A DNA stretch of 64,000 bases from Phanerochaete sordida (taxonomy: Eukaryota; Basidiomycota; Agaricomycetes; Polyporales; Phanerochaetaceae): positions 1 through 64,000 of the forward strand of contig BPQB01000069.1 in NCBI GenBank assembly GCA_019973155.2, in the 5' to 3' direction. Positions 22,870 to 62,867 of this stretch are shown one piece after another; position 1 is the first letter of the stretch; each line of letters begins with the position of its first letter. Below the pieces are notes generated by a model, which saw nothing but the letters and a program-made list of their open reading frames with translations, was not told the DNA's origin and ran no database searches. Position numbers and translations under genes: made by a program.

Positions 22870-23094
22870 TTGGGCGCGTTCCACGTCAGCGCGTCCCTGG
22901 CGCGACTGCGCAGCATATGCCGAAGTGCCCAACGCCAGAGCTGATACGGGCTAGGCTCGAGGCGACGCTGTGCTTCGCTCAGGCTGGCGATTATTGGAGT
23001 TCGTGGCGTGAAGCAGGTGGCGTTAGAAATGGCCGACGCTGAATATTTGAATTTCGATCCGTGGGAGATCAAACGCCACAAGCTGATTATGTAA
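22870..23094 (+). promoter_or_regulatory. Conserved P450-upstream block with bipartite motif, copy 1
   Basis: This 225 bp block is clearly similar to 46497-46726 upstream of P450 copies B and C. The match is strongest from GCAGGTGGCGTTAGAAA onward. It ends in the motif CCGTGGGAGATC-AAACGCCAC (23059-23079), a 7 bp spacer, and TTATGTAA (23087-23094). Confidence 0.6.
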
Positions 23095-23099
23095 GGTAT

Positions 23100-26000
23100 T
23101 CATTTTCTCGGTTTGCAGGAGCGTTTTCAGCCTTTCAACAGCCTTTTGCTTGAAACCTCGAGCCGATTACTAGACTCCTGGCGCCGTTACCGGCTGACCG
23201 TATACAGCTTTACGGTAATTTGTAAAATTGCGATCCGCTGAGCATAATAGTGACGCAGTGACGTACAAGCCGCCGACTTCGTTTTAACGGCACGGTATGT
23301 CCTCACCTATGCTTCATCTATGTCCGCACATTAATCCCCTTGGACTCCACAGCTGCATCGGCGGGACACACGGCGGTCGCATTCATACATCTCACAGACT
23401 CAACTGGCGGCCTCCGCATTGACACTCCCGCCGGCCCAAATGCGTCATGCCCGAGGGTCCACAGCCGCCCGTTAGCAGGCAGGTGCGAAGGTCGAGGATA
23501 ATTATCGTTCTGATAGGCTTTTGAACTCTACTCCATTGCCAGTGCAACTATCGCCGGGTACGTTCGCCATACACTGGCGTCGTTAGATGCGTTATCACCC
23601 CTGGAGGTTCTGCGGTAGCTTACGCCATCCATCTTTCATGGCCCCCTCGCGCCAAAACCGCTGTTGGAAAAATGCCCCCGAGCTTCCGAGAATACCTCGC
23701 GCAGGGTTGACCCATCCTGTCGACGTCGTCCAGAAATATCGCACTGGATGCTACTACTACACTGAGTGTCGCGTGTACCTTTGCCACGGCCGTGGGGACC
23801 CCGAATGTGGACAGCCACCGTAGGTGCCCTCTACAGGGCTGGGGATTGAGCACATCGCGCCAGAGTCGTGCTGCTTAAAGAACGCGATTGGAGGGCTCTG
23901 CCTTGACGGCGGGGCGCAGTCGAGGCCGCGGGAGGTAGCCCCTCACTCACACCTCCTCGTGCAGGAAGCACGCCCGGATCTGTGCATGATGCGAGCGTGC
24001 GTCCTGTGTATTGTCCGGTATTTCTCTGTGGAGCCGGCGGGAGAGGCTCTACGCAAGATAGCTCGTGCAGGGTAGGCCTCTCCTGGCAGGGCCGTTGCAC
24101 CAAAATATTATACCGGAGACTACCACCCTGGGCATCGTGTGCATCTTCACCGCTCTCGCGAGGAGCGCAGATGGATGCCGCCGTCATATGTGTACGCTCC
24201 TCATGCTGAAGAGCTCGAACCCAGGGTCCAACGCCTGCTGGATTGCACCAGCGCGATGCGGGTAGGAGAACGTGATCTACGATTTAGAGTATGATGTCGC
24301 TAGAACGACCTGGTGGAGCCCTTCCGCGGTAGGCAGCTGGTCGCCCACGCACCGTCGTGCGGGACGTACACGAGGATCTGCACATGATATGGAACTGCGT
24401 CCTGTGTATTGTCCGGTGTCTCTCGCTCGAGCCGGCGGGAGCGGCGCGCACGCTGACTGATGTCGAGCTCATCAAAGCCCGGTAGAGTTTGTTGCGTGAG
24501 GCCTTATTGGTGTCACTGCCTTCATGAAGCATGGGAGACGTAGATCATGCGGCCAATATGGATCGTGTTCTTGGGCGAGGGCGAGGCGTGCTTCCCGCCC
24601 CTCCGTGCGCCGTCGGATCCTGCGGTTGCGCCACACGTCGCGGCGGGATCGACGCTTCCCTCTGTAGTTAAAGGCGTGCCACATTGCATGTCGGCGCCGC
24701 TGTAGACGTCAGGAAGATCGGCGCTGGTGCTTAATGCGGGCCTCATTCGGATTCTGACTATACAGCGGCGCATCTGCGTCCTCGGGCACCAGCCCGAGGA
24801 TCATCGACTGCAGTGCCGCTGTGATGGTCATCTCAAGGAGGTGCCCACTTACATTTCACAAACTAAGACGAGTGATGACAAGAACATAGGCGGATGTAAC
24901 TTCATCGACATCGAACATCTGCACCAGTGACGAGGCATTGCTCGCGAACAACGATATCTGCACAGGAATCAACCAGGGTCATCCACCACCACCCCATGGC
25001 CGTGGCACGATCTGTCCCAGCGTGACCATCACACGCAGTTCTTGCAGTACCCCCACCGAACTCAGCTCTGGCCACGCCGGCAGCCGTCCCACGCAAATCC
25101 GTGCCCTGAAGCTTCTGGCGCAAACTACGCGCAGCCCGCATCCCGCCAGCGGGCCGACCCTGTGCGATCCGCCGGTCGCAGAAGTCTCTCACCGACCCAC
25201 CGGCCCTGCGCGATCTGCGCCGCGCAGACGCAGCAGGCCAAAGAGTAGCGGTCGGTGCTGCCGCTGCGCCGCGCGCGACGTCTCTCCTGGGCCGGGCCAT
25301 GCCGCCCTGAGCAGAGAGAAGTGCTCCAGCCTGAGCCAGAGCACGGCGGCAAGTGCCTGTCCGCAATTCAATGCGAAGGGTACCGCCGCTGCCCTGAGCA
25401 GACCGGTCAGCTCAGTCGGGCGACGGTAGTGCGAGCTCGCCGTGGCCCGGAGCCCGAGAAGTACGGGACGCAGGAGCGTGTCCATTCGCGGGCAGGGTCG
25501 ACATGCTCCAGAGCAGCACGGCCGCTGGAGAGACCGTATGGAGCTGCGGAAGGGCAGGGTATGTGCGATATAGCCGTGGCGTACGCGCGTGCTGAGCAGT
25601 GGGCTGGTGTGTCGGAATCCGGGCGGCCGTGCGAGTGCAGAAGAACGATGGTATTCTGGAGCACGATCAGATAGAAGAGAAGCAAAGTGTAGGGCCCTGG
25701 CAACGGGATCTTTTGCTGCTGGTATCACGGCGCATTGAAGAGAGCGGACGTATTCCTAGTAACAGGCGAACAGGCGCAAAAAGCAAGGCATTCGGTACCT
25801 CGGTCTCGAGCTGGCATGCGCTGCTCTTCCCAGCACGTGACGTCGACGTCACGCACCGCATCGCTCGTAGCAGATACAGCAGCGTCCGCAGAATGGAGGC
25901 CCACGTCGCGTCAGAGGGACCGCCTCTCGATCGCACATCGCATCTGCGAAAAGATGCGCTGCTCAGCCGGTGCGCAATACCAATCGCCAGGGGATGCGTA

Positions 26001-26254
26001 CAGTGTTCTATTTGTGCGGACGCCAAGCGCACGCTCGCCAGCATTCAGAGACAGTGCCTGCGCCGCGCCACGTTACATCCAGCGTGTGTTCGGATGCAGG
26101 GAACGACGTACAGGTGGAGACGCCTCGCGCGGCGTCCAGGCCGCGATATTATACATTGATATATACAGGCAGCACGGCGACCTCGATAGAGATGGAAAAC
26201 GTTAACGCGGCGCACACGCGTTATGGTATATTGGAACAGTTCGAACGAAGCTGG
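23100..26254. other. Intergenic region with a diverged duplicated segment
   Basis: No intact gene is found. Segments at about 23965-24045 and 24358-24438 align in one frame as diverged copies. The shared run TGCGTCCTGTGTATTGTCCGG is followed by GAGCCGGCGGGAG, and both translate to C-V-L-C-I-V-R with E-P-A-G downstream. This points to a decayed duplicated exon or transposon fragment; no family is recognised. From 24950 to 26150 only GC-rich overlapping frames are present. Confidence 0.4.
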
Positions 26255-27017
26255 TCACCGCTGGCCAGCAGGGCCTGGCGGCTGAGGTGGCGGAGGGCGG
26301 GGCGGGTGCTGCTGCCCGAGGTTCAAGACGCCAAAGTGGCCGGCACTCGACGATCCTGCGCTCGACGACCCGCCCGCCTGGGATGCAGCCGTGGCAGGTG
26401 CGCCGGCAGCCAGTGTGCCTGGTCCGGTGGAGGAGCCAGCGACAGGCTCCGGCTCGGGCGCGGCGCCGCCGTGCGTCTGGTGGTGGCGCTTCATGTTCGA
26501 CTTGGACGTGAAGCGCTTCGTGCAGCCGGGGAAGGGGCAGGCGTATGCTGGCGGTGGCGTTAGAGCGCTCTGGCAGGTTCAAGGTGGCGATGCTGCACTC
26601 ACGTCTATCGCCGGTGTGCACGACGGTATGCGCTTTGAGGCTGCTGGGCCTGGCGCGTGCGTCAGCAGAACGTAATGTCGCAGGCGTACAGTCACGCACC
26701 GTAGAAATCGCTTCTGGCACGTCTCGCACACGTACTTGCGCTTCGCATAAGCATCGTCCTGGGCGGCGGCCTAGAAGGCACTCTTGCGTCAGTGGCGGAC
26801 ACTAAAGGTGTCGTGGGACTCACGGGTGCTTCGGGTGCCTGCGCTCCGCCCTGTGGATCCTCGGTCGCGCCCGCTTGTGCGCTCGATGGCGGAAACTGGT
26901 CTAGCAGGGGCGTGCGTGAGTCAGGAGGCCGGTCTGGGGTTCATGCGGGCACTCACCAGGGAACACCTCGCGGATGCTTGGTAACGACTCCGAGGGATGG
27001 TCAGCATCGCCGACCAT
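26255..27017 (-). CDS. Two-finger C2H2 zinc-finger protein (copy A)
   Basis: Five exons from the ATG at 27017 to a TGA at 26255, about 170-180 aa. Exon 1 encodes L-P-S-I-R-E-V-F-P, the N-terminal motif shared by all three local copies. The middle part is Ala/Pro/Gln-rich. Finger 1 is Y-V-C-E-T-C-Q-K-R-F-L-R, spliced to P-S-S-L-K-A-H-T-V-V-H-T-G. Finger 2 is Y-A-C-P-F-P-G-C-T-K-R-F, then S-N-M-K-R-H-H-Q-T-H. The tail is Gly/Ser/Pro-rich and disordered. A minus-strand TATA-like TATATGAAG lies about 35 bp upstream. Linked C2H2 fingers of this type normally bind DNA, so a nuclear regulator is likely. Introns split the fingers at the same positions as in the copy at 29176. Confidence 0.8.
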
Positions 27018-29175: not shown

Positions 29176-29975
29176 CTAAGTTTCCGACGCCCCGGCCTCG
29201 CTATCGAACGATCGCCGGCGCGTCGGCCGAGCCCCTCGACTCGGCCCCGCCTGCGGCGGCCGTGGCAGGGTGAGCGTCGCAAACATCGAGGCCGGGCCTC
29301 CCGGCCTGCGGGTTGCCGGCCGCGCCTCGGACTGCACTGACATTGCAGCTGGCAGATCGGCAGGGCTGGACGTCGTGGCAACAAGCGCGCCCGCGATAGG
29401 CGCGTCGCGAGCCGCAGAGGGCACGGCGATAGACCCCGCTGTGTCCGTCTTGCGCGCATCCTCCGGGAGGACGTGCACGACGGCGTGGCGGCGCATGTTT
29501 GAGCGCGTCGAGAAGCGTTTCCCGCAGCCGGGGTGCGGGCATTCGTGTGCTGGCGGGGCGTCAGCTGCCGTCTCGTGCGCGCTCGGCACTGGAGCAGGAG
29601 AAGTGGACTCACGGCGTTCGCCCGTGTGTGAGGTGATGTGGTTGCGGAGGCTGCTCGGTCTGCGAGATGTGAGCAAGGAGCATATGGAGGACTGGGAGCT
29701 GACTTGCCGCTGGAAGCGTTTGCCGCACGTTCCGCAGACGTAGCGTCTTCGCGGGTCGTCAGCATCTGTCGCAGGTGGCGCAGGCTGGGCCACAGCAGTC
29801 TGGGGAGCGGTTGTTTGCTGAATCGATGGTCCTGCGTCTGCTGTCGGGAAGTGCTCTAGTGGGATGTCAGACGAGGAAGGACGACCTGACTAGACGGACA
29901 TAGCATACGTGGAAAGAGCTCTCGGATGCTTGGCAGCTCCTGCGCTTCGTGTTCCTTCGGCTCAGGACGACTCAT
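29176..29975 (-). CDS. Two-finger C2H2 zinc-finger protein (copy B)
   Basis: Four exons from the ATG at 29975 to a TAG at 29176. Exon 1 carries E-L-P-S-I-R-E-L-F-P. Finger 1 is Y-V-C-G-T-C-G-K-R-F-Q-R, then P-S-S-L-R-N-H-I-T-S-H-T-G. Finger 2 is H-E-C-P-H-P-G-C-G-K-R-F, then S-N-M-R-R-H-A-V-V-H. The tail is Ala/Pro/Arg-rich with R-P-T-R-R-R near the end. The intron inside finger 1 uses a GC donor (GCAAGT at 29707). Frame and homology to the other two copies require this GC-AG splice. Likely a DNA-binding nuclear protein with unknown targets. Confidence 0.85.
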
Positions 29976-43925: not shown

Positions 43926-46268
43926 CTACGCACCAACCCGCTCGAGCCTCAGCGGCAGCCGCGCCTCCGTCCCGATCTTTCCGACCGTGGGGTACGCAAT
44001 CGGCGCGCGGTTCCACACGATCTCCGTGCCCGGCGCGAGCGCCAAGCGGTACGAGGACACGAGCATCGCGAGCACGACCTCTGCGGCGTGTCAGCGAGCC
44101 CACGGCAGGACGGGAGGAGCGGGGGAGCGCTTACTCATCTCGAGTTGCGAGAACTTGAACCCTCTGCAGAAGCGTCAGCGTCGGCCAGGGAGCGGGCAGG
44201 CGGGAGAGGAAAGAGACGCACATGCACGACCGCCCACCGCCCGTGAACGTCATCCTGCGCGCATCAGCGCACCACCGACACCCCGCACGCGCACGCGACT
44301 CACAGATTGGCGTACACCCCCGGCATCTTCACCCCCGGCATCCGCACCTCCGGCACCGCGCCATCCAGCCACCGCTCCGGCCGCCACGCGCGCGCGTCCG
44401 CGCCCCACACCGCGCGGCTGCGGTTCGCGCTGTGGATCGCGACGACGCACGTCGTGCGCGCGGGGACGTGCAGCGCGCGCGTGGTGGTGCCGTCGCGCAG
44501 CGCGAGCGGGGCGCTCAGCGGGAGGAGCGTGGCTTTGGCCGTGCTGTGGGTGCGTCAGTGATGTATTTACAGTGAGCTGGGACAGGACGTACACGCGGAA
44601 GACGAACGCGACGGGCGGGTACCTGCGCCGGTGCTCTCATGTCAGAGTGCGCGCGGGAGGGCGGCGGGGCGGCTCACAGGCGCAGCGTCTCGCGGCACAC
44701 CGCGTCGAGGTACGGCAGCGCGGCGAGCGCGTCGTACGCCAGGTCTTCGGCCCCGTGCGCGGCGCGCGCGGCACGCAGCTCCGCGCGCAGCGTTTCCTGT
44801 GCGGCTGGGTGCAGGCAGAGCAGGTGCAGGATGCGCGCGAGCGCGTTCGAGGTCGTGTCTGTGCCGGCGAAGGTGAACGTGCTGTGCGTGCCGTCAGCTG
44901 CAAGATGGCAGGGGGAGGGCAGGGAGGGCGGGGACGGACGTGATCTGCGCGATGATCTCGCGCTCGGGCAGCCGGTCGGCGGCGTCGACATTCATGTTCT
45001 CGCGCACTGCAGAACGCGGACGCAGCGTCAGCGCGCTGCGGACAGGCGGCGCCGGCGGCACGTACGCAGGACACTCATGAGGTCGCGCCCCTCCACGACA
45101 CGCATCTTGCTCTCGGCGTCGTCGCCCGCGAGCGCGGCCTTCTTCGCCGCGTAGATCGCGTGCGACGTGCGGTCGAGGACGTCCTTGATCGCCTTGATGC
45201 GGCGCAGCCCGGCGTGCGGGACGCGGTCGAACGCGCGCCCGACGGCGGCCGCGAGCGCGGGGCGCGCGTCGCACGCGGCGATGAGCGGGCGGAAGAGCGG
45301 GAGGAGCGCGATGAAGACGACGAGGCCCGCCGCCGTCGGGCTAGCGGCACGCCGTCAGCGCGCGCGGGCGGCGAACGAGGAGGAGGAGGAGGAGGAGGAG
45401 GAGGGGGAGACGCACATGAAGTCCTTGATGGCGCGCGCGTATGCGTTCGGGACGTCCGCGACGAGCGGGTCGAAGGAGTGGCCGAAGCCGCCCTGCCCGA
45501 TGAGCTCGAGCGCCGCGCGGCCCGTCCAGCCGAGCACGTCGACCTCGCCGTCTGGCGCCGCGGCGAGCTGCGCGTCGATCCCGGCGCGGAGCTGCGGGGG
45601 CAGTCAGCTGGGGGTGTGCAGGCTGGGCGGGCGGGGGCGTACGCGGTGCGCGACTTCGTGGAAGAGCGGGGTCAGGCGGCGCATGTGCGCCGTGGAGAAC
45701 ACGGGGTTGAGCATTTTGCGCTGGCGCCGGTGGTGTGCGCCGACTGTGGACATGACGCCGGGGCCCACGAACAGCTTTCGCCCTCTTTTATGGCATCAGG
45801 GGATGAAGATCGGGTACTGGACGCGGGAGGACAGACGTGATTATTAACGGCGCCTCCTCGTAGATGTCCTGGTCCTTGATGAGGACGTGGTGTAGCGCAA
45901 GGGGGTCGAAGATCCACAGCACGCGCCGCTAGACGGCGCATTCAGCGACTCAAAGCCGGTCACAGGCGGCGCGACGTACCCCCAGGATGCCCGTGAGCTT
46001 CACGACCTGCCCGTAGTCGTCGGTGAGCTCGTCCAGGAAGGGCCACGCATCGCGTTTCTGCACGCGATCCATGCTGCCTATCGCCTCACCGTCAGTCTCT
46101 CGCCGATGTCAGAACAGAACGGACGGCGAGACCTTTCAGCAACGAGTGCGCACGCGGCCCGGGGATGTTATCGAGCGGCGACGGCAGATAGCGCCGGAGG
46201 AGTTTCCACGCAAGCCAGAGCACGACGCCCGAGACGGCCCAAGGGGCGGCGGAGCCGGCGAGCGACAT
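43926..46268 (-). CDS. Cytochrome P450 monooxygenase (copy B)
   Basis: About 12 exons from the ATG at 46268 to a TAG at 43926. The anchor is A-P-W-A-V-S-G-V-V-L-W-L, followed by D-N-I-P-G-P. Later landmarks are L-I-G-Q-G-G-F-G-H-S-F-D-P, A-G-T-D-T-T-S-N-A (about 44840-44880), E-T-L-R-L (about 44690) and T-G-G-G-R-S-C-I-G (about 44215-44255, split by an intron). The intron that interrupts the G-x-H-H-R-R-Q-R-K region in copies A, C, D, E and F is absent here: S-T-V-G-A-H-H-R-R is continuous near 45740. One intron holds a (GGA)n run at about 45378-45405. It is the copy most similar to copy A. Catalytic residues are present, substrate unknown. Confidence 0.85.
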
Positions 46269-46496: not shown

Positions 46497-46726
46497 GGAC
46501 GTATTCCACGTCAGCGCGCTGCGCAGCATCCGTCGAAGCGCCCAAAGCCCACGTTAAACCAAGTTTGGCTCGAGCGACCGTGGCTTGGTACTCACTGCGT
46601 CCCAGGCTGCCGCTCGCTCGAACTTGTGGCGTGGAAGGAGGGAGGCAGGTGGCGTTAGAAACGGCAGACATTGGATATTTGAATTTCGCTCCGTGGGAAA
46701 TCAAACGCCACAAGGTGCTTATGTAA
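46497..46726 (+). promoter_or_regulatory. Conserved P450-upstream block with bipartite motif, copy 2
   Basis: This is the counterpart of 22870-23094. The motif CCGTGGGAAATC-AAACGCCAC occupies 46691-46711, then 7 bp, then TTATGTAA at 46719-46726. It lies between divergent P450 copies B (ATG 46268) and C (ATG 47251), so it could serve both. Confidence 0.6.
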
Positions 46727-46877
46727 GGCACCCATTCTCTTGCAGCCAAGCAAGCCTCGTATGGGGACTTTGCGGGTGCAATGTCGTACGTAGGGCTCTG
46801 CGTGGGCTTACCTGCCAATCACTGCTGTCTATAAGTAAGAGCTCGACGGGGAGAGGCAACCCGGGAAGTGGACAATT

Positions 46878-46910
46878 GTGGGAAACAAGCGCCACGACAG
46901 AATTATGTAA
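46878..46910 (+). promoter_or_regulatory. Bipartite motif, copy 3
   Basis: GTGGGAAACAAGCGCCAC at 46878-46895, a 7 bp spacer, then TTATGTAA at 46903-46910. This is the second copy within the divergent B-C intergenic space, 341 bp before the ATG of copy C. Confidence 0.6.
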
Positions 46911-47250
46911 GCTTCCCACTTCGTCGTCAGATCGGATCGCCGGCAGCGCGCGCTCGGAGCCTTCCTGTCAGACTCGCCGACAAATCCGAGGCGCATCATT
47001 CGTCGCGGGCACTGCTGGGCGCGTTTGCGTGCACTTGCGCCCGGTTTCGCGCCGAAGAAGGCCAGAAGAATGCCTCGTTCGTCGCCTGCCAAGCGTCCGC
47101 AGCTCGACAGACTGGTCAGAGGAAGGATGCGATCGCCATGGCTCCGCTGCCGAGCGGATGCCGCGCGCGGAGAGTCACAGTCGGAGCCGCCACGAGCTGC
47201 TCAAATGCCCGCGGCGCGCCTCGCCGGCCTGCACTTCCTCTTCCCTCACC

Positions 47251-49542
47251 ATGCTCTCGACTGCGCTCCCGTGGGCCGCGGCCGCCGCGCTGCTCTGGCT
47301 GCTGTACAGGCTCGCGCGCGGCTTCCTCGCGCCGTCGCCGCTCGACGCCATCCCCGGCCCCGCGCCCAAGTCCGCGCTCGCAGGCAAGCGTCCGCGTTCG
47401 CTCACGCACCGCACATGGCTGACTGCTCGCCGCAGGCACCATGGCCGACCTCGCGGACCGCAACGCGTGGCCGCTCCTAGACAAACTCACGAATGACTAT
47501 GGGCAGGTCGTGAAGTGTGCGGGCCCGTTGGGGGTGAGCATGACCGTGCGTCGTGAAAAGTCTTGGTGCTCACTGTATGCGCTCAGGGACGCATGCTGTG
47601 GGTCTTCGACCCCAAAGCGATGCACCATATCGTCGTCAAAGACCAGGACGTCTACGAGGAGCCCGCCGCGGCCATCGCGTAGGTCGCGCGTCCTCCGCTC
47701 GGCGCGATGCTCATCCGGCCATCTTCCAGAATCGGAAAACTGCTCATTGGTCCAGGTCTTATGGCAACCACAGGTACGAGCGTCGGCCCATACTCCGCTC
47801 ATCTAGCTGACAGCGCTGCGCACAGGCGAACACCACCGCCGCCAGCGCAAGCTGCTCAACCCCGTCTTCTCCATCGCGCACATGCGCCGGCTCACGCCCG
47901 TCTTCTACGAAGTCGCCAACCGCGTACGCCCTCCCCTCCTCTCCCGCACCCCCGCTCACCCTGCCGCAGCTCCGCGCCGGCATCGAAACCCAGCTCGGCG
48001 CCGCGCCCGCCGACGTCGACCTCCTCAACTGGATGGGCCGCGCCGCGCTCGAGCTCATCGGCACCGGCGCCTTCGGCCACTCCTTCGACCGCCTCGTCGA
48101 GAACGTCCCGCACCCCTTCGCGGACGCCATCAAGGACTTCGTGTGCGCCCTTCCCTCCTCTCCTCTCCCCTCCCCCATTCCCCTCCTCTACCTGACTATC
48201 CGTCACTCACGCGAACAACAGCCCCGCATCGGCAGCACTCGGCCCCCTCATGGCCCTCATCCCGCTCTGCACGCCGCTCCTCGACTACGCACGCGCGCGC
48301 CCCGCGCTCGCCGCGCTCCTCGCCCGCCTCGCGGCCCGCGCGCCGCACGCGGGCGTGCAGCGCATGCGCCGCGTGCTCGCCACGCTCGGCGCGACCGCAC
48401 ACGAGATCTACTCTCAAAAACAGGCCGCGCTCGACGGCGAGGACGCGGAGGAGCGCATGCGCGTGCTCGAGGGCCGGGATCTCATGAGCGTCCTGCGTAC
48501 GTGCGCGCGCAGTCCGTGCGGTGTATGCGCTGATGATGGTTGGTAGTGCGCGAGAACATGCACGCGGACGCGCAGGACAGGCTCCCCGCGGAGGAGATCA
48601 TGGCGCAGATCACGTACGCCCCGCCCCTGCCGCACGCACGCGCCGCTGACGCGCCCGCAGGACGTTCGTCTCCGCCGGCACGGACACGACCTCGAACGCG
48701 CTCGCGCGCGTGCTGCACCTGCTCTGCGTGCACCGCGACGCGCAGGAAAGGCTGCGTGACGAGATCCTCGAGGCTCGTGCTCAAAATGGTGGGGATTTGG
48801 GGTATGATGAGGTGGTGGCGCTGCCGTACTTGGATGCGGTCTGCCGCGAGACGCTGCGGCTGTACCCGCCCGCGTCGTTCGTGGTTCGCGAGTACGCCCC
48901 GCCCTCCTCCTCCCTCCCTCCCCCACCCCACTAACCCCTCTCCAGAGCGACCAAGGACGCCTCCCTGCCCTTGAGCACGCCCCTCCCGCTAGCGGACGGC
49001 AGCACCACGTCCGCGCTGCCCGTGCCCAAGGGCACGACGCTCCTCGTCGGCATATACTCCGCGAACCGTGCGCCGCGGTGGGGCGCGGACGCACATCTCT
49101 GGCGCCCGGAGAGGTGGCTCGAGGGGCTGCCCGAGGCGGTGCGCGGGGCGGGGGTGCCGGGGGTGTATTCGCATTTGTGAGTCGGCGTGTGCGCGGATGG
49201 GTGGGGGGTGCTGATGATGATGGGTAGGATGACGTTCAACGGCGGCGCGCGCGCGTGCATGTACGTCCTCCCCCCCTCCCTCTCCCATCCCTCCACTCAC
49301 CCCACCATTTAGTGGCTTCAAGTTCGCGCAGCTCGAGATGAGTGCGCCCTCCCCTCCCCCTCCCCCTCTACAGTTGCTGACGAGGAGCAGAGGTCGTGCT
49401 CGCGACGCTCGTCGGCGCGTTCCGCTTCGCGTGCGCGGAGGGAGAGGAGGGAGAGGTGGTGTGGAACGCGACGGGCATTGCGTACCCCACGGTTGGGCAG
49501 GGGGAGAGGGCGCGGTTGCCGTTGCGTGTCGAGCGTGTGTAG
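47251..49542 (+). CDS. Cytochrome P450 monooxygenase (copy C)
   Basis: Thirteen exons, about 550 aa, ATG at 47251 to TAG at 49540-49542. Features in order: anchor A-L-P-W-A-A-A-A-A-L-L-W-L, D-A-I-P-G-P, M-L-W-V-F-D-P-K-A-M-H-H, G-E-H-H-R-R-Q-R-K, G-T-G-A-F-G-H-S-F-D, A-G-T-D-T-T-S-N-A (about 48677), E-T-L-R-L-Y-P-P (about 48850), W-R-P-E-R-W, and F-N-G-G-A-R-A-C-I-G (from 49230, split by an intron). Intron 1 uses a GC donor at 47384, required to keep K/A-G-T-M-A-D in frame. The intron that follows E-T-L-R-L in copies A, B, D and E is missing. No TATA is seen near the start. It is probably a working, ER-anchored enzyme; substrate unknown. Confidence 0.87.
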
Positions 49543-49785: not shown

Positions 49786-50310
49786 CTTGACGCGACCTGC
49801 GCGGTATATGAGGTCGCTTGGGGCGAGGCGCGCCTTCTCTCTCCCTCCTTTCCCTCGAGACGACTCTGCTCACCGTCTGCGCACGGTGCGCCACGCGTGG
49901 GCGCTGCTCAAATGCTACGTTCTCCCTTCGCCGCGCACCACCTACCCGGCCCGAGCGCGCACTCGCTGCTCAGCGCTCACAGGCACGCTGTCCGCGTCTC
50001 GAAGTGTTCGGGCGCTGGGCCCGCGCGGCGCGGCGCGTGCGGACGCTGGGCCGGCGAACGCGGGCGGGCAGGGCGCGGGCGCGCGAGGCTCTTCTGCGTA
50101 GGTGCCGTCTGGGCCGGAAAGCCGTGCGCCTGCTGAGCGACGTGCGCAGAAACACGCCGTCTGGGTGCTCGGCCCCCGCGCTGTGCCACGTCGTGCGCGA
50201 GACCAGGACGTCTACGAGGCGTCTCCTTGGATGCTGATGACGTTCACAACGGACAGAAGCTGTCCATGGGCCCGGGGCTGTTGTCGACGACAGGCAGCTC
50301 TGGTCCCTAG
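49786..50310 (+). pseudogene. 5' fragment duplicate of P450 copy D
   Basis: This aligns with the promoter and first four exons of copy D (about 50400-51020). A shared TTGACGCGAC leads to GTATATGAGG (TATA-like, here about 49805), then the region encoding W-A-L-L-K-C-Y-V-L-P-S-P. Further on come parts matching the D-Q-D-V-Y-E exon and the G-P-G-L-L-S-T-T exon. The initiator ATG is replaced, the frame shifts before the hinge, and the sequence ends after the fourth exon. All later P450 motifs are missing, so it cannot encode an enzyme. It sits just upstream of its parent, consistent with an incomplete tandem duplication. Confidence 0.75.
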
Positions 50311-50489: not shown

Positions 50490-52847
50490 ATGTACCTGCT
50501 CACCGTCGTAGGACTGTGCGCCGCGGCCACGGCCGCGCGACTCGCGTGGGCGCTGCTCAAGTGCTACGTCCTCCCCTCGCCACTCAACGACATCCCCGGC
50601 CCCAGGTCGCACTCTCTGCTCAAAGGTACGCTCTCCTCGTCGCAGAGTGGTTAGACGCTAAGCCCGCGGGACACTGGCAGGCTCCGAGGACCGCCTGCAG
50701 CAGCGCGACGCGTGGCCGTTCCTCGACCAGCTCACCGAGGACTACGGGCAGGTCGTGAAGCTCACGAGCCTCTTCGGCGTGCGCCTCATCTGGGCCTGCG
50801 AGCCGTACGCCTGCTAATCTCCGCGCGCAGAAACACGTCGTGTGGGTGTTCGACCCGCTCGCGATGTACCACATCGTCCTCAAGGACCAGGACGTCTACG
50901 AGGAGTCTCCCTGGATCATCATGTTCGTTGTCTTGCATCTGCGATGCATCTCTCTGGTTGCTGATGATGACCTTCACAGCGGACGAAAGCTGTTCATGGG
51001 CCCAGGACTGTTGTCGACCACCGGTAGCTCAAACCACCAACTGCTTCTCGATGCCGCTGATGTCGTCCTGCAGGCGCGCACCATCGCCGCCAGCGCAAGC
51101 TGCTGAACCTTGTGTTCTCCATCGCGCATATGCGGCGCCTCACGCCGGTGTTCGGCGAGGTCGCCAGTCGTGTGAGCACACCTGTCACACTATGGGAAGG
51201 TATCAAATATCCTCACATACCTCGCGCAGCTCCGGACCGGCATAGAGACGCAGCTGCAGGCATCCGCGGACGGCGAGGTCGACGTGCTCGGCTGGATGGG
51301 CCGTGCTGCGCTGGAGCTCATCGGACAGGGCGGCTTCGGGCACTCCTTCGACCCGCTCGTGCAGGACGTTCCGAACGATTTTGCTAGCGCTATCAAGGAC
51401 TTCGTGTATGTCATCTATCTTGTTATGCTGTGCAGTGACCTAACGACCTTCCGCAGCCCAACGATCCAAAGCCTGATGATCTACCTCGCCTTGATCATCC
51501 CGTTCAGCCCGCTCATCGACGCGTGCGAACGATACCCAGCGCTGAGCGCGTTCGTCGGACGCTGCTTCGACTGCCTACCCCACGCCGGCCTCCGTCGTCT
51601 GAAAGCGATCGTGGACGTCCTCACCAGCACGTCGCGCAGCATCTACGCTGAGAAGCAGGCCGCACTCGAGAGCGACGCCGCAGAGACCAAGATGCGCGTG
51701 CTGGAGGGCCGCGACCTCATGAGCGTCCTGCGTACGCACGATCGTTTCCTCGAGGCGCCATCCCGAACGCTGACCCGCTTCCGTTCGCAGTGCGCAAGAA
51801 CACGCGCGTGGACGCCGCAGACAGGCTGCCCGCGCGCGAGATCATCGCGCAGATCACGTACGCCGCACTCCCCTCCCTCGAGACGCCGCCGCGATGCTGA
51901 GCGCACGCTAGCACGTTCACCTTCGCCGGCACGGACACGACGTCGAACGCGCTCGCGCGCATCCTGCACCTGCTCTGCCTGCACCGCGACGCGCAGGCGG
52001 CGCTGCGCGCGGAGCTGCTCGAGGCGCGCGCTCGCAATGGTGGGGCGGATCTGGAATACGACGCGCTCGTCGCCCTGCCCTTCCTCGACGCGGTCTGCCG
52101 CGAGACGCTGCGCCTGTGAGCCGCGGCGCCGCCTCCCTCGTGCCCCGTCTCACCTTACCGCAGGTTCCCGCCGGTGCCCTGGGTGTCTCGAGTGTACGCA
52201 GCACCACCAGCGCTCGAGCGAGGTCTGACGCGGCCATCCACAGAACCAACAAAGACGCCCGCCTCCCGCTCGCCGCGCCCCTCGCGCTGCGCGACGGCAC
52301 GCGCGCGTCTGCGCTGCACCTGCCCGCGCGCACCACCGTCGTGCTCGCGATCCACTCCGCGAACCGCAGCACGCAGATCTGGGGCGCGGACGCGCGCGAG
52401 TGGAGGCCGGCGCGCTGGCTCGGAACGCTGCCTGCGGCGGTCGCGGAGGCGAAGAGTCCGGGCGTGTACGCGAATTTGTGGGTTCCGCGCGGACGTGCGG
52501 CGGCGATGCTGATGCTGCTGCAGGATGACGTTCACGGGGGGCGGACGGTCGTGCATGTACGCCTCTCCGCGCTGTCTCTGTCCTGGCTCGGCTGATATCC
52601 TGCCTTCGCAGCGGTTTTAAGTTCTCGCAGCTCGAGATGAGTGCGTCGATGTCGGCTTCAGTGTCTTCGCCGCTGACGCGGCGCAGAGGTTGTACTCGCC
52701 ACGCTCGTGTCGTCCTTCCGGCTCTCCCTCTGCGAGGGCGCGAACGCCGACATCATCTGGAACCGCGCGCCGATTGCGTACCCGACGGTCGGCCCCACGG
52801 ATAAGACGCCGAGGCTTCCGCTGCGCCTTGAGCCCTTGGGTCACTAG
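50490..52847 (+). CDS. Cytochrome P450 monooxygenase (copy D)
   Basis: ATG at 50490, TAG at 52845-52847, about 13-14 exons. The anchor differs from the other copies (V-V-G-L-C-A-A-A-T-A-A-R-L-A-W-A-L-L), followed by N-D-I-P-G-P. Landmarks are H-I-V-L-K-D-Q-D-V-Y-E-E, G-W-M-G-R-A-A-L-E-L-I-G, A-G-T-D-T-T-S-N-A (about 51925), E-T-L-R-L (about 52106), W-R-P-A-R-W in place of PERW, and T-G-G-G-R-S-C-I-G (from 52525, split by an intron). The usual G-E-H-H-R-R motif reads G-A-H-H-R-R and the conserved L-N-P-V-F is L-N-L-V-F. A TATA-like GTATATGAGG lies about 65 bp before the ATG. The bipartite motif was not found upstream of this copy. Confidence 0.85.
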
Positions 52848-53825: not shown

Positions 53826-56185
53826 CTAACCGTTCAACGGCTCGACACACAGCGGGAGACTCGGCCTCCTGCTGTTGCCGACGGACGGGTATGCAATGCC
53901 CGCGCGGTTCCAGACAATCTCGCCGTTCTTGCCCTCGCAGAGCGAGAAGCGGAAGGACGAGACGAGCATCGCGAGGACAACCTCTGTGTCGCGTCAGCGT
54001 CCCGGCGACATTCAAGACCAGAAACGACGTACTCATCTCGAGCTGCGAAAACTTGAAGCCGCTGGAAAAGCACGTCGTAGTCAGAGACGGAGGCAGAGAA
54101 CGATGCGGGGACGTACATGCACGCGCGACCGCCGCCGATAAACGTCATCCTGCACGCGCGTCAGCACCCCACCAAAGCTCTGCCGCGCCAGCACTCACAG
54201 GTTCGAGTACACGCCGGGGATGTGCGCGTCCGCGACGGCCTCGGGGAGCTTGCCGTCGAGCCAGCGCGCGGGCTTCCACTCGCGCGCGTCCGCGCCCCAG
54301 AGCGCCGTGCTGCGGTTTGAGGACCAGATGCCGACGAGGATGTTCGTGCCCTTTGGTATGTGCAGTGTGTCTGTCGTGCGCCCGTCGCGCAGCGCGAGCG
54401 GCGTGCTCAGCGGGAGCACGGTGTCTTGCGTGGCCCTGCAGAGAGTGAGCAGAGGTCTCGACTAGCGCGGGGCGGGGCGTACTCGCGGTTCACGAATGCC
54501 ACGGGCGGGTACCTGCGGGCGGCGCGTCGTGTCAGATGGGGATTGGCGTTCGAGGGCTGGTGGTACGCACAAGCGGAGGGTCTCGCGGCAGACCGCGTCC
54601 AGGTACGGCAGGCCGACGAGGGTGTCGTAGTCGAGCTCGGCCGAGCCGTTCTGCGCGCGGGCCTCGAGGACCTCGGCGCGCAGCTTCTCCTGGACGTCCG
54701 GGTACAGGCAGAGCAGGTGCAGGATGCGCGCGAGCGCGTTCGAGGTCGTGTCCGTGCCGGCGAACGTGAAAGTGCTGCGCTCAAAAAGTCAGAGGCGTGC
54801 AGGACCGGCGCGAACGGGCCGACATACATGAGCTGCGCAATGATCTCGACCGCGGGGAGCCTGTCCGCCGCGTCTGCGCTCATGTTCTCGCGCACTGCAC
54901 GACGGGCACCGTCAGCGAGCACACCCAGCCAGCCACGCCTGCGCACGCACACATGACGCTCATGAGGTCGCGGCCCTCGAGCACGCGCATCTTCGTCTCG
55001 GCGTCGTCGCTCGCGAGCGCGGCGCGCTTCTCCTCGTAGATCGCGACGGACGTGTCGTTGAGGACGTCGAGGATGTTCTTCATGTGCCGCGCGCCCGCGT
55101 GCGGCACGCGCCGGAAGAACGCGCTGAAGCACGCGCCGAGCGCGGGCCACGCCGCGCACAGGTCGACGACCGGGTCCGCGAAGAGCAGCATGTACCGGAA
55201 CACGCCGAGCTGCGAGATGCTCGGGCTGCGCGCGCGTGCGTTAGTGCGGGGCGGGCGGCGGAGTGCGGAGGGCGTACACGAAGTCCTTGACGGCGTCGGC
55301 GTATGCGTTCGGCGTGTTCTCGACGAGGGCGTCAAAGGAGTGCCCGAAGCCGCCTTGCCCGATCAACTCGAGCGCGGTGCGGCCCATCCAGTTGAGCACG
55401 TCGACCTCGTTGGAGTGCGAGGCCTTGAGCTGGGCCTGCATGCCTCTCTGGAGCTGGGGCGGCCATGAGTATGGTGTCCCGGAGGAGAGTCTCGCCTACG
55501 TACACGGTTGACGACGTCAGAGAATACCGGCATCAGCCTGCGCATGTGCGCGATCGAGAACACCGGGTTGAGCAGCTTGCGCTGTCTGCGGTGGTGATCG
55601 CCTAGAGGACTGCGGTCAGCGAAACGCGCAGAGGGCACAGCCGTTTCCATACCGAGAGTCGCCAGCAGACCGGGACCCGTGCTCAGCTTCCGTCCACTAC
55701 AAAAGGGACCTGTAAGCTCAACAGCGCCGTCATATGAAAGCGACGACTGACGTAACAAGGGGATCGTAGCTCGCCTGGTCCTTGACGATGACGTGGTGCA
55801 ATGCCTTCGGATCAAAGACCCACAACGTGCGTTTCTGAACAATCATAAGCACTGTTCAAGGGATATGGTCTAGAGAGCAAGGAATCAGACTGCGCACCCC
55901 AAATCTTCCTGGGAATTGCACGACCTGCCCGTAGTCGTTGGAGAGATGTTCAAGGAATGGCCATGCTTCACGATGTGTGAGGTCAGCCATACAGCCTTGC
56001 AGAGAAACAGGTCAGCATGAGGAGAATTTGGATTTCAAAAGCATACCATCTGTCCAAGAGTGCGAGGCGGGGCCTGGAATCTTGTCCAGAGGCGACGGCA
56101 GAATAAAATTCCGCGCGAGCTTCCAGAATAGCAGCGCAAGGAGTCCCAGCAAGGCCCACGGGGCTACTGAGACTAGCAATGACAT
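53826..56185 (-). CDS. Cytochrome P450 monooxygenase (copy E)
   Basis: About 13 exons from the ATG at 56185 to a TAG at 53826. The anchor is A-P-W-A-L-L-G-L-L-A-L-L-F-W, then D-K-I-P-G-P. Landmarks are G-D-H-H-R-R-Q-R-K, L-I-G-Q-G-G-F-G-H-S-F-D-A, A-G-T-D-T-T-S-N-A (about 54730-54775), E-T-L-R-L (about 54570), W-K-P-A-R-W and I-G-G-G-R-A-C-I-G (about 54110-54145, split by an intron). A palindromic TATA region (CCCTATATAGGG) lies about 80 bp upstream at 56262-56273. It faces copy D tail to tail and is divergent from the PaiB-like gene. No damage seen. Confidence 0.85.
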
Positions 56186-56788
56186 ACAGAAAGAGGCTTA
56201 GGAGGGATTGAGAGTGGTCGAATAGAGAGACGGTGATTTGCGCAGGCAGCACGCACCTGAAACCCCTATATAGGGCGTTTGGGCCAAAAGCGGGCCGTCT
56301 ACACATGTTGATGACGCACGTCGGTCGGTCGGTCGGCCAGACGACGCTTCTTCAGCATAAATTGGGAGCGAAAGAAGGCACCGTGGGCGCAGCTTTCGCC
56401 TGGTAACACGATAGCTACATTGACTGGCAATTGACTGCGCGCCGAGCACCGGGGCCGCGCGACATCTCCTCGATGACATCTCGGGCCCGTCCTCCACAAA
56501 ATCGAGGAAAATCTCAAAAATCCTCACTCCTTGTCTACCCGCTCAGAAGCGATGCTGCATGGTGTCTGGACAGCGACCATCGGACACGAACTATTGCGGG
56601 GGCAATTGTCGTGGATGCTGCAGTCCGGGGCACTCGAGCAAGTCTGAGGGGGCTTGCAGCCCTGAGAGATGTCGAACGGATTCTTGGTAGAGAGTACTGA
56701 GAGGCGTGCAGGAGGGCGTAGACAAAAAGACGATATGGTTGTCTGTCACGTTGCAGGCACACCGAAATTTGCACCCGGACATGGCTGG

Positions 56789-56824
56789 TTACATAATCCC
56801 TTCGTGGCGTTTGATTCCCCACGG
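56789..56824 (-). promoter_or_regulatory. Bipartite motif, copy 4
   Basis: On the minus strand it reads CCGTGGGGAATC-AAACGCCAC, a 7 bp spacer, then TTATGTAA. On the plus strand TTACATAA is at 56789-56796 and GTGGCGTTTG onward is at 56804-56824. It lies 75 bp before the PaiB-like ATG (56899) and 600 bp upstream of P450 copy E. Confidence 0.6.
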
Positions 56825-56898
56825 GGCGGCCTCCCGGGATCCGAGTCACGAAATACTGCCACCTTTCCGCCAACGACGACCTCCTCCTGGCCACCACC

Positions 56899-57654
56899 AT
56901 GTACATACGCCCAGTCCACGCAGAACACGACCTGCCCACCCTCCACGACTTCATTCGCTCGAATCCCCTCGGCGTCCTGACGACCGCGATCGAGTCCTCG
57001 ACGCACCACTTCCTCCAGTCCAGCCATATCCCCTGGCTGCTCGACGAAGGCGGCGAAAAGGGCCTGGGCGTCCTCCGCGGACACATAGCCCGCGCAAACC
57101 CACAAGCGAAAGCGATCATCGAGGACCTCACCGCGGGCGCGTCGCGCGCCAGCGCGCCGCAGCTGCACAAGGACGTGCTCGTGCTCTTCACGGGGCCCGC
57201 GCAGCACTACATCACGCCCAAGTTCTACACCGAGACGAAGCCGGCGACGGGCAAGGTCGTGCCGACGTGGGACTACGCCGCCGTGCAGGCATACGGGCGC
57301 GCGACGCTCTTCGTCGAGCCCGCGGACCCGCGCACGGACGCCTTCCTCGCGCGCCAGGTCGCCGACCTCTCGCGCTTCGCCGAGGGCACTCTCATGGGCT
57401 ACGAGCGCCCCTGGAGCGTCGACGACGCGCCCGAGAACTACGTCGCGCTCCTCAAGAAGGCTATCATCGGTATCGAGATCGAGATTACGGACATCGCGGG
57501 CAGGTGGAAGATGAGCCAGGAGTTGTCCGCGGGCGACCGCGAGGGCGTCGTCAAGGGCTTCGAGGCCCTTGGGACCCCGCTCGCGTGTGATATGGCGCAA
57601 GCGGTGCGGGAGAGGGACGAGCTGGCGCAGGCGAGGAAGAAAGCGGAGGCGTAG
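56899..57654 (+). CDS. PaiB/PAI2-type FMN-binding split-barrel protein
   Basis: One uninterrupted exon of 251 codons, unlike the intron-rich neighbours. The start M-Y-I-R-P-V-H, then L-H-D-F-I-R-S-N-P-L-G-V-L-T-T, the middle S-S-H-I-P-W-L-L and G-H-I-A-R-A-N-P-Q, and later T-W-D-Y-A-A-V-Q-A-Y-G and G-I-E-I-E-I-T follow the FMN_bind_2 (PaiB) family over its full length. Bacterial PaiB is described as a negative regulator of protease and sporulation genes. Fungal homologues are common, and a flavin-linked redox or regulatory role is only inferred. The bipartite motif lies just upstream, shared with the P450s. Lack of introns is usual for this family, so transfer is not implied by that alone. 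The opposite strand is open across it by GC bias. Confidence 0.85.
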   Translation: MYIRPVHAEHDLPTLHDFIRSNPLGVLTTAIESSTHHFLQSSHIPWLLDEGGEKGLGVLRGHIARANPQAKAIIEDLTAGASRASAPQLHKDVLVLFTGPAQHYITPKFYTETKPATGKVVPTWDYAAVQAYGRATLFVEPADPRTDAFLARQVADLSRFAEGTLMGYERPWSVDDAPENYVALLKKAIIGIEIEITDIAGRWKMSQELSAGDREGVVKGFEALGTPLACDMAQAVRERDELAQARKKAEA

Positions 57655-58755: not shown

Positions 58756-61608
58756 CTACGCGCGCATGCGAGCTGTATCTGCTACATTGATCAAGTGGGT
58801 GTCGTCCACACGCTCGACAAGGAGTGTCTCGCTGTCTGCCAGAAATACGAATTTATCAATCGGAACGGGGGCGAAGGTGACTCTCGTATTCCACCCTTCG
58901 GAGAACAAGGCCCTGGCAAAGCCGCGGTGGTCCCTGAGATTCGCTTCCCCTCCCTCGATTGTCAGAAGCAATTTGGTAGACCTCGAGTCGTAGACTTGGA
59001 TATCCCCTGACATGAGGGCCACGGCGAGGAAGCGACCATCGGGCGAGTATGCACCACGAGCCGCGTCGCCTTGTATCTGGTAAACGTGCCGAAGCGCTCC
59101 CGTCCGGATGTCATACGTCAACAGCGCATGCTCTTCACGACACGTTACAAACGCCTCCGTGCCGTCGGGAGAGAGTCCTGCGGGGAGTATCAGGGGATTC
59201 GGGTGGGACAGTTGCAGGAGCTCATCGCCTGTGTACGCATCTCGGACTGCCATCGCCTTTCCTTTCTCCAGCTCGGATAGCAGACGGACGCCGGGAGAGG
59301 GATGTATCCCAGCTGGAATAACGGTTGCGGGGCCGGCGAGGAGGTGAGATGAAGCATGGATGGAGGACAGGTAGGATTTAGCTTCCAGATCGTAAATGTG
59401 ACATGATTCTGGACCACCGAAGCAGATTATGTCGTTTCCAGCCGAGTTTCGTATGAAGTCAACTCGAAAGATCGTCGATAGCCGAAAATCTGAAGGAAGC
59501 TGTATGGTGGATAGACGGTACCCGCTCGCGACGTTCCAGATGTCGAGGGACGGAACGCCAGAGGTCTGGGTGGCTAGGGCGATACGAGCCTGGGACAGAT
59601 CCCACGCGATAGTGGTCACTGTCGCACTCCCGTTTGGCGATGCTATGCGTGCGGGTGTGGCGCAGCCACTCCGAACGTCCCAAAATACGACAACAAAGCT
59701 GGTGTTCAGGCCGTTCGTTTGCCATACAGAGACGAGGGTGCGCCCATCGGGGCTAAACTTGAGATAGCTTGCGTCCACTAAGGACTCTGAGGCTCGGTGC
59801 TGGTCGCCGCGAACGGATTCAGCATGGCTAAGATGCGCTTCAAGTCTACGATCCTCGAGGCGCAGGCGTTGGATCGGCCTAGCGTCGTCAGCGCGAAATA
59901 TGGTGATGTCGGATGAGCCGAAGACTGCTGCGATGTAGCTTCTATCTGCGGATACCGCGAGATGGGTCGGTCCGCCTTTCGAGGGATTACACGGATCTTT
60001 GAGTGCGAGGGCAGGCAGCAGGACGGGTCGACCTCCATGGAGGGAGGCTCCGATGCGACCGCGTACATCTTTGACAGTGAGGAAACGTCCAGAGTTGGTT
60101 CCAGGTTCCACATCGGGGCGGAACCGAGATCTCCTGGTCCTGGCTCCCAGTAGTACATGCCGCAGGCATTTGTGTCGTACAACATCGTCGACAGAAAAAA
60201 GACCGGCGCCTGAACCACAAGCCAAAGTTAGAACGCATGCACACTGAGAGGTATTCGTACAACTGACCGCCTGTGACGGTAACTGGAGGCCGAACTTTGC
60301 GAAGGTAACTTGAGAGATCCACAATCCTGTTCCCGCCCTGAGCGTCGATTGTGAGCCTTACTACTCATGCCAGACTCAGTTCGCAGAACGTACAGTGATC
60401 GCGTCGACGTCGTCGTCGCCGGCGATAGCGACATCCACCGGAGAAGTCTGTCGTCGCGGAAGCGAAGTGAGCATAATGTTGTTTCGTCGCAATCGCGCAT
60501 ACCTCGAATATATACCCCAGCAGAACATCAACGGGGTCGTCCGTGGACTACTGGTCTGTCAGCTCTATGTGTCTACTTAGGAGCGCGGGGCATTTGCGTA
60601 CCTCACCATCGTCGTCTTCACAACTGCATCCGACATACTCCTCTTCTCTCGCTTCCAGCTTCATTTCTCCTAGAGTGCCTCCGCCACTGGAGCGCGGCAG
60701 CTGGTGGTTGCCTGCGCCCGCCACAATCCTTCGCAGGAATGCCATCCGATGCCGCACCTTGTAGCGCTTGACAAACACGCACTGATCCGTCGCGTGCTGC
60801 AAAGTCGTGTCCGCACTCCCCTCCAAAAAAGCCTCGCCGTGCCTATGCATCGTTGGGCCTGTCATGGACGTCGCGCGCGATGCGCCTGTGCTGACAGAAG
60901 CGACACCACCGGCCTGGCCGCTCAGCGACACGCTCGAGCTCACGTGCGTGCTTGCAAATGCTGCCGCAGCCCAATTTGCCTCAGTCTTCACCCAGCCGCT
61001 GATCATGACCAGGTCACGACCCCGAACCGGTTGCTTCAGGACGTTCGTCACGTACGTGCGCCACTTTCCGTGGTTGCGCAGGATGTACTCCTTCAGCTCC
61101 GTGTTCTCGTAGATCGTCTGCGCGTGTGGATCGCTCTTGAGCTCGAGCACCGCGCCGAAGGTCGCTTTGCAGCTGTACTCGGCGCTGAGCCCGACTGAGG
61201 CGTTTGGGCCCGCCGTACTGAAGATCCTCAGCGATAAGACACGAGCGATGCGATACGCACTCACATGTCTGCTGACGCGTGCACCTTCCTCTTCTCTACT
61301 CCATGGCTGCTGTATTCTCCACGCGCAAGCGGCTGCCGCCTTCTATCAATCTTGAGCACGCCCTCAGGCAGCTCCTCATCTACGACGAAGGAACGCGGCT
61401 TCCAGTACGTGACCTTCTTGTTGGGATCCGAGGTATCGAGGTTGAACAGGCGAACAAACGCGCCGTCGCTGAGGTAGCCGACGTCGCCGACCTGGGGTTC
61501 GCCCGTGTCGTGCGGTTCGGGATACCAGAGCGCGCGGCCGAGACTGAGCTGCTTCAGGCTATGCGCGTAAATCTGGGCGGGAGTCGATGGCTGGTGCAAT
61601 TTGAACAT
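58756..61608 (-). CDS. WD40-tailed protein of an unnamed agaricomycete family (complete copy)
   Basis: Read leftward from the ATG at 61608. Exon 1 has an A-L-W-Y-P-E-P-H segment, then G-D-V-G-Y-L-S-D-G-A-F-V-R-L-F-N-L. Exon 2 has Y-S-C-K-A-T-F-G-A-V-L-E-L, R-N-H-G-K-W, M-I-S-G-W-V-K-T, T-G-P-T-M-H-R-H-G and a K-R-Y-K-V-R segment. Three short exons follow, with D-P-V-D-V-L-L-G-Y-I-F-E, A-I-A-G-D-D-D-V-D and V-D-L-S-S-Y-L-R-K. The last, long exon holds a WD40-like propeller with repeated S-P-D-G-R blocks and ends H-L-I-N-V-A-D-T-A-R-M-R-A. Total length is about 850 aa. A TATATA lies only ~20 bp upstream of the ATG, so the exact start is less sure. It is probably a scaffold; no catalytic motif. 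It is the inverted paralogue of 16496-18813. Confidence 0.75.
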
Positions 61609-62867
61609 AAGGTCTGAAGGAAATGGTGTATATAGTCTGCGGAGGCCTTTGGTAAGCGTAAGAAGGAAATGAGAAGCGTGCAAGCGAACGGACCTTGGAC
61701 GATTTGCCTCGTGGCGAGTTCGCACGAACAAGAACGCCCAAGCATCCGAGCATTCTCCGGCTCAGATGGGTATATCCGGCCCTCTCGAGACGCAAGGAGC
61801 AAATTTTATGAGCCCAATAGTTGCGATAGAGCTGTAGAGGATTCAATTCAGGACTGTAATTTGATTGAAGCGTTTTGGCAGACGTACCAGCTGGTTCGGG
61901 GCAACGTGTACGACTGGCCGCGGGCCCTTTGGAAGATGAGAAGAGCTCTAAATCGAAAAGAGATGAGCAATTGCCAGGCTGTAGACACAAAAAAAATAAC
62001 AGGTAAGCCTGAAATATCAAAAATATGGCGACCCAAGTGACGACGAGGCCTGTCTGAGGCGTCGATGTATATGATTGAGCACAGAGTGGGAGCGTCGAGG
62101 CTAGGTAACCGCCACGAGGTCATTATGTAAGCTGCCTCTTTCGTCCGCGGGAAGCGCCGGCTCTCTCGAACTCAAGTTACTCCTTCACCGTTCAGATATT
62201 CCAGTGCACGACTCGCGATTCTGCCAGCCTAGTCGGCTGCCAACGTGACCGGCCTCCTCAACTTGTTTGCCAGTTCACCATGAGCCTTGCAACATAGCGA
62301 AGGATGGAACCTTTTTTACCTCTGAAAATATCATTTGGTGAGTCATTGTACAGGCCAATAAGCCAGAATGATCACAGAGCTCAATCAGATTCAAGTACGC
62401 TTCTTTCAGGCTATCGACCCGCCACCTGCAGCGCACCTCTTGGAGCGTATGTCAGACCGACTGGCACCTGACTGGGTGTTTAGAGAGATTTCAACGTAGC
62501 ACAAACTACCACAGAGCCCGACATGCTACTCTCGGGCGCTGGACAGGCCCGCCATGTCATTCCAGCTGTGTCCATGGGTTGCCCATCTCGCGGTCCAGAA
62601 GAGCCGCTGTCACATTGAACCTAGAGCTCTGCAAAGGCGCGTGTACCAACTTCTCATGCAATACATCGAAGACAGCACTCATTTCTCACAGCGCCGTGTG
62701 CGTCATGGACGCGCTGTCTACGGCCCGCGCTTACAGGCTACCGAGCGTGCTGCCGCCAGGATCAAAGCGCAGTGTTTGGTGCCGCCGCACATCATATATA
62801 AGGGATACAGGTGCGTCACGCTTTGGCAATCACGACTGCTTTTTTCTCATTACTATCCACCGTCAAG
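61609..62867. promoter_or_regulatory. Divergent upstream region of the WD40 gene and P450 copy F, with bipartite motif copy 5
   Basis: No gene is supported here. GCCAC at 62111-62115, a 7 bp spacer and TTATGTAA at 62123-62130 give the fifth copy of the shared element; its GTGGG half is displaced to about 62085. Downstream bases (GCTGCCTCTTTCGTC) resemble those after copy 3. A TATA box ATATATAAGG at about 62796 lies ~70 bp before the ATG of copy F. Confidence 0.55.

Follow-up and report, generated by a model that had tools for sequence, protein, structure and literature searches.

A two-part element that probably places a P450 gene cluster of Phanerochaete sordida under shared control

White-rot fungi possess many P450s, which are implicated in the degradation of wood extractives and pollutants. 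To our knowledge, little is known about how clustered copies of these genes are switched on. Six P450 genes (A to F) start within the first 64,000 nucleotides of a 191-kb contig of Phanerochaete sordida (C69, 191086 bp), and this stretch, C69:1-64000, is the window analysed here. A sequence-only reading of the window had reported that GCCAC recurs five times around the P450 genes, each time followed at a distance of 7 bp by the octamer TTATGTAA, and had interpreted the arrangement as a two-part transcription factor site. Does this element tie the clustered genes to a common control? It seems likely that it does. We assign a probability of about 0.68 to a composite upstream regulatory site of ~20-36 bp, (GTGGGRRATCAAAC)-GCCAC-RA-N4-M-TTATGTAA, that would put the P450 cluster under shared control.

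The element was searched for in the window and in the whole assembly (one assembly of 40.84 Mb in 222 contigs, to which all genome counts refer; the DNA search skips simple repeats). All five reported copies of GCCAC-N7-TTATGTAA are exact and lie at the positions and on the strands given for them: 23075-23094 (+), 46707-46726 (+), 46891-46910 (+), 56789-56808 (-) and 62111-62130 (+). With the bases that belong to them, the elements are:

23061..23095, plus strand: element A, GTGGGAGATCAAAC-GCCAC-N7-TTATGTAA-G; the start codon of P450 A is 1701 bp away
46693..46727, plus strand: element B; 525 bp upstream of the P450 C start codon and 439 bp from that of P450 B
46878..46911, plus strand: element C; 341 bp upstream of the P450 C start codon, in the orientation of the gene
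56788..56822, minus strand: element E; 604 bp upstream of the P450 E start codon, with that of a divergent PaiB-like gene 91 bp away
62110..62131, plus strand: element F; 738 bp upstream of the P450 F start codon, with that of a divergent WD40-type gene 503 bp away

The genome-wide search relative to gene starts, which had been proposed as a check, gave six exact copies, all of them on C69, and none for the reversed control pattern. The sixth copy, at C69:93013, lies outside the window. An order-3 Markov model trained on C69 predicts 0.0009 exact copies on this contig and ~0.2 in 40.84 Mb. Allowing one mismatch added 15 copies in the genome, one of which is on C69 (67311, minus strand, with TTATATAA for the octamer). 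In the window, a search with up to 3 mismatches found 13 matches compared to a mean of 6.57 after shuffling, and the 8 non-exact matches all carry 3 mismatches. Since the A and B copies lie in one duplicated block, they should be counted once, which leaves five separate places. Because the element stands upstream of five of the six P450 genes and its exact form occurs nowhere off C69, it is probably a binding site for a pair of gene regulators that control the cluster.

The spacing between the two halves is strictly kept on C69. The octamer occurs six times on both strands of the contig (0.7 expected), and all six occurrences have GCCAC at exactly 7 bp; no second GCCAC was found near these octamers at other distances up to 60 bp. 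In the genome, 19 pairs of GCCAC and TTATGTAA with gaps of 0-30 bp were counted (reversed control, 16). Six of them have the 7-bp gap and all six are on C69, whereas the 13 pairs with other gaps are all on other contigs. The 7 bases between the halves had been described as differing from copy to copy at constant length, which holds in all five copies, but the filler follows the pattern R-A-N4-M in each of them (5/5). In an alignment of the seven C69 copies (the six exact ones and 67311), C-GCCAC-R-A-N5-TTATGTAA is kept with a sole departure, A for G in 67311. Ungapped identity among six copies (B excluded) is 0.78-0.85 in the 20-bp core. It falls to 0.48 and 0.37 in the two 10-bp bins 5′ of the core and to 0.37, 0.39 and 0.32 in the three bins 3′ of it, and beyond roughly -20 to +50 it is at chance level, 0.17-0.29 per 10-bp bin. 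Four copies (A, B, C and E) also carry GTGGG(A/G) and AA(A/G)C. Both had been placed directly before GCCAC; this is correct for AA(A/G)C, whereas GTGGG(A/G) lies 14 bp before GCCAC in A, B and E and 13 bp before it in C. Correspondingly, GTGGGRRATCAAAC precedes the core in A, B and E, and a version that is one base shorter precedes it in C.

The genes around the elements are:

19015..21374, minus strand: P450 A, own gene model; ATG at 21374
43926..46268, minus strand: P450 B, P0010; ATG at 46268
47251..49542, plus strand: P450 C, P0011; ATG at 47251
50490..52847, plus strand: P450 D, P0009
53826..56185, minus strand: P450 E, PF00067, 98% to P. sordida P0001; ATG at 56185
62868..64000, plus strand: P450 F, P0002; continues past the window end to C69:65237
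56899..57654, plus strand: PaiB-like gene, FMN_bind_2 (PF04299, E 1.6e-52)
58756..61608, minus strand: WD40-type gene, 'YPEP...GDVG' family (by eye), divergent from P450 F and with array relatives on C69

Elements thus sit between the divergent pairs B/C, E/PaiB-like and F/WD40-type. In five P450s (A, B, D, E and F) a TATA-like box is present between -68 and -87 relative to the ATG; P450 C has none. Outside C69, pieces of P450 genes match P450 E at 30-63% per piece, and no exact element is found there.

To define the left half, the upstream half of the element was searched with 3 mismatches. This gave 23 matches, 3 of them on C69, compared to 10 for the reversed control, and led to a box, ATCARACGCCACNA. 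The genome contains 43 exact matches to this box and a single match to its reversed pattern. Three of the 43 are on C69, one belongs to a copy on contig C89 and six are on contig C95. Among the 17 of the 43 matches that were read in sequence, 13 lack the octamer, and 8 of these 13 have GGCG(C/G) before the box. The left half is therefore not special to the cluster, and it is the octamer that marks it. Ten left-box loci, which came from the 3-mismatch search and so already favour matches near the P450-type upstream half, were scored for coding potential. Their scores over 320 bp range from -3.3 to -20.7, below the lowest tenth of coding pieces (8.7) in a model tested on its own training data. 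One frame is open over 160 bp in 7 of the 10 loci, and no frame is common to them (frame 0 in four, frame 1 in one, frame 2 in two). These loci look noncoding, and they show little likeness outside the box and its edges, save for one tandem pair. We found no name for the left box in the papers covered by our searches: searches with its words as exact strings gave no titles on fungal regulation among the matches listed, and the Phanerochaete promoter motifs in the accessible part of PMC7038570 (SGTATAAA, Adr1, ACE2) differ from it. C95 (118545 bp) holds a second cluster of left-box matches, at 17825, 22694, 24825, 46606, 70471 and 96461; two of the three that were read share flanking bases.

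The right half had been likened to bZIP half-site DNA, and this likeness is borne out. TTATGTAA differs by one base (T for C at the fourth position) from TTACGTAA, which is the Pap1/Yap site in the available text of PMC4232046 and PMC3111461. Judging by the octamer, a bZIP protein may bind the right half. Among the literature matches listed for TTATGTAA itself, as far as their text was available, vertebrate PAR-bZIP and D-box papers prevail. The combined pattern CGCCACRAN5TTAYGTAA has 8 exact matches in the genome, the six on C69 and two relatives at C23:61820 and C39:16939, both of which end in TTACGTAA; TTACGTAA does not occur on C69. When a gap of 0-12 was allowed after RA, 10 matches were found compared to 1 in the control. 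The C23 relative also carries TGGGAAAC at the same position as in copy C. Downstream of it are a gene with a But2 domain (PF09792, just above the cut-off) at 373 bp and a UstYa gene (PF11807) at 1.1 kb. The C39 relative lies 726 bp before a gene whose N-terminus belongs, by eye, to the 'YPEP...GDVG' family (no Pfam hit). At C89:109187 the sequence reads CGCCACGAAGG-CTTATGTAA and looks like a copy with a spacer one base shorter (6-bp gap). It adjoins GGTTAGGGTTAG.

Assuming that two proteins read the element, the left half would be a general site, ATCARACGCCACNA, recognized by a factor that serves many loci. A second factor would read the right half, TTAYGTAA, the simplest candidate being a bZIP dimer of the Pap1/Yap/HapX type. 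Because the gap is fixed, the two factors would sit side by side and bind cooperatively, and only promoters with both halves should respond. What the analysis shows is where the element lies, its uniqueness and spacing, its conservation beside diverged flanks and the excess of the left box; protein binding, the proteins involved, their cooperativity and the direction of control are inferred. From its place 341-738 bp before the ATGs of B, C, E and F (1.7 kb for A), the element would act upstream of the TATA-like boxes of A, B, E and F, and the divergent neighbours could also be under its control. For the PaiB-like gene, the sole pointer to such regulation is the copy in the divergent E/PaiB promoter. 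The element offers a handle for fishing out its factors, and the genes beside it would form a testable regulon of five P450s, the PaiB-like gene and perhaps the UstYa locus. Tentatively, and with the odds against it, we suggest that the left box might be an unnamed regulatory element of white-rot fungi with clusters of its own. The bZIP octamer at a fixed distance would then make a general site into a private address of the P450 cluster, and the regulon would fall into branches according to the fourth base of the octamer, which is T in the cluster but C at the UstYa and C39 loci. The left box is over-represented genome-wide and would be a basidiomycete regulatory word.

Motifs that are concentrated in one fungal cluster are of a known kind, as documented in the accessible part of PMC4198257. 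There, GTGGtgCCAC is over-represented in the promoters of the Fusarium graminearum cluster C02 (12 of 16 genes). Like the P450 element, it is a single motif concentrated in the promoters of one cluster relative to the genome, and both contain GTGG and CCAC words. In contrast, the P450 element is non-palindromic and consists of two parts with a bZIP-like octamer, and its surroundings differ from C02-type clusters in being a tandem P450 family, with no polyketide synthase or non-ribosomal peptide synthetase (NRPS) among the genes examined. A close parallel in architecture is the CBC:HapX element of Aspergillus and other fungi, described in the available part of PMC4232046 as bipartite with a poorly conserved spacer. 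According to the same text, HapX, which binds cooperatively beside another factor, belongs to the Pap1/Yap1 bZIP subfamily, whose sites are TTACGTAA and TTAGTAA. The P450 element likewise has two conserved half-sites around a poorly conserved spacer. Its 3′ half, TTATGTAA at exactly 7 bp, has a resemblance to a bZIP-type site and may be one. Unlike CBC:HapX, it has ATCAAACGCCAC as its 5′ half and lacks a CCAAT box in any fixed position, and the neighbouring genes are P450s rather than iron genes. CCAAT or ATTGG lies within 60 bp in one of the seven copies, as ATTGG 37 bp before GCCAC in B, and is absent from its twin A. Because its first half is not CCAAT, the element may work like CBC:HapX but is not a member. 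The Yap response element YRE-A, TTACGTAA in the accessible part of PMC3111461, is one base off the octamer and is present exactly in the two outlying relatives. The cluster copies differ from it by T for C at the fourth base and by always lying beside GCCAC on C69. Neither TTACGTAA nor TTASTAA was found in the cluster copies, which read TTATGTAA and, in one, TTATATAA.

Several observations weigh against shared control by the element. P450 D has no upstream element at up to 3 mismatches, so that the earlier placement of copies upstream of the P450 genes stands for A, B, C, E and F, with the copy of A 1.7 kb from its ATG. Relative to the nearest P450 the orientation is opposite for A and B and the same for C, E and F. 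F, 93013 and 67311 consist of the core without ATCAAAC. For the copies at 67311 and 93013, the closest predicted gene start is 4.2 and 1.2 kb away, respectively. The C89 copy is situated 3′ of a gene, and no further gene was seen over 2 kb downstream of it. These three are outside obvious promoters and are unexplained by the two-factor model. At up to 2 mismatches there is no excess, neither for the element (293 genome matches, 462 for the reversed control) nor for CGCCACRAN5TTAYGTAA (34, control 45). Because these totals are below the controls, the excess of the element is confined to its exact form, and only exact and 1-mismatch matches of the combined pattern are meaningful. Finally, gene ends come from our own models made with a simple gene finder, although the ATGs of the B, C, D and E models agree with P. 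sordida proteins and that of F with P0002. The earlier two-part interpretation therefore keeps its fixed gap, its variable filler, an exact form limited to one contig and a noncoding, non-repeat setting, but its left half is general, D lacks a site and two copies lie away from gene starts.

An alternative that we consider unlikely is that the copies have no function and descend from duplicated promoters or from a small dispersed repeat, having spread either by gene conversion or along with duplications of the P450 and WD40 genes. Shared ancestry is evident for A and B, which lie in duplicated blocks:

23010..23108, plus strand: 99-bp block holding element A; 85/99 identical to 46642-46740, no gaps
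46642..46740, plus strand: 99-bp block holding element B; pairs with 23010-23108

Both blocks contain an inverted left-box-like word, TTTCTAACGCCACC, ~59 bp before the element, and element E has a weaker one at ~55 bp. Over 53 bp, the copies at 67311 and 93013 are 79% identical, and every exact copy lies on one contig that is rich in tandem duplication. Some resemblance also extends to the last 150 bp before the two ATGs of A and B (100 of 132 aligned positions identical, 0.76 compared to 0.62 after shuffling). Common promoter ancestry may therefore account for part of the A/B likeness, a further point against shared control. On the other hand, homology with common ends is limited to the A/B and 67311/93013 pairs in a comparison of the flanks of all copies, and outside the element the six copies are identical only at chance level. 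This flank identity (0.17-0.29) leads us to reject a dispersed repeat or transposon, the possibility that had been named as refuting the regulatory interpretation. The introns of A and B are near saturation (0.68 identity compared to 0.63 after shuffling), and neutral DNA that old would be unlikely to retain all 13 of 13 bases at six locations. Because the block is 85/99 identical while the introns are near the shuffled level, either selection or gene conversion has kept it. P450 pseudogenes at 67311 and 93013 were also considered, but the one stretch outside the six genes in which tblastn located P450 pieces is 49889-50298.

Rather improbable is the reading that one large DNA-binding protein recognizes both halves, for example the product of a regional C2H2 zinc-finger gene. 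At least three such genes are on C69 (26255-27017, 31393-32460 and C69:86908-89827), the best genome relatives of one of them are on C69 and C18, and regulators encoded in the cluster itself are common in fungi, as the abstract of PMC4006717 also states. Two fingers, however, read ~6 bp and not 20, and the left box is widespread without the right half. The three C2H2 genes near the P450 cluster are related and share an N-terminal SLPSI word, which makes them candidate regulators.

We regard as very unlikely that the element acts in the core promoter or in the transcript, with TTATGTAA as a TATA variant or its ATGTAA as a start-stop upstream open reading frame. ATGTAA is present in 6/6 exact copies, 67311 reads TTATATAA, and element E lies 91 bp before the PaiB-like ATG. 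Yet in A, B, E and F a separate TATA-like box (-68 to -87) follows downstream of the element, and the element is in the opposite orientation for A, B and the PaiB-like gene. These boxes, and the orientation in A and B, reject the reading for A, B, E and F, but not for C. A known RNA family was also considered, and Rfam gave 0 hits in the window. A coding role, in which the element would specify a conserved peptide end (frame ...RH[K/D/E]x[I/L]M-stop), is hardly credible: in the A and B blocks one frame stays open over the final 66 bp and closes at TAA, but the reading is rejected on the A/B differences, which fall 3/4/2 on codon positions 1/2/3 without wobble bias, and the wobble bases of CGC, CAC and TAA are invariant in 7 copies, the residues before RH are not common to C, F and 93013, and the frame is broken in the C89 copy.

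Some further features of the region were observed. The promoter of P450 A contains ~1.3 kb (~21500-22870) without a counterpart between the ATG of B and its element, and within this extra DNA a telomere-like stretch, CCCTAACCC, lies at ~22530. By tblastn and blastn, a partial copy of the 5′ end of P450 D is present at 49787-50298, just upstream of D. WD40-type genes form an array on C69 (58756-61608, 70190-72855, 94907-96769, 101856-104531 and 108708-110554), with tblastn pieces to ~153 kb; their N-terminal 'YPEP...GDVG' part had no Pfam match in two members tried. A reductase fragment (NAD_binding_4, PF07993), perhaps the end of an NRPS-like enzyme, lies at C69:81983-82841. The window also contains tandem repeats at 6356-6729 and 1-607, with units of 75 bp and 170 bp.

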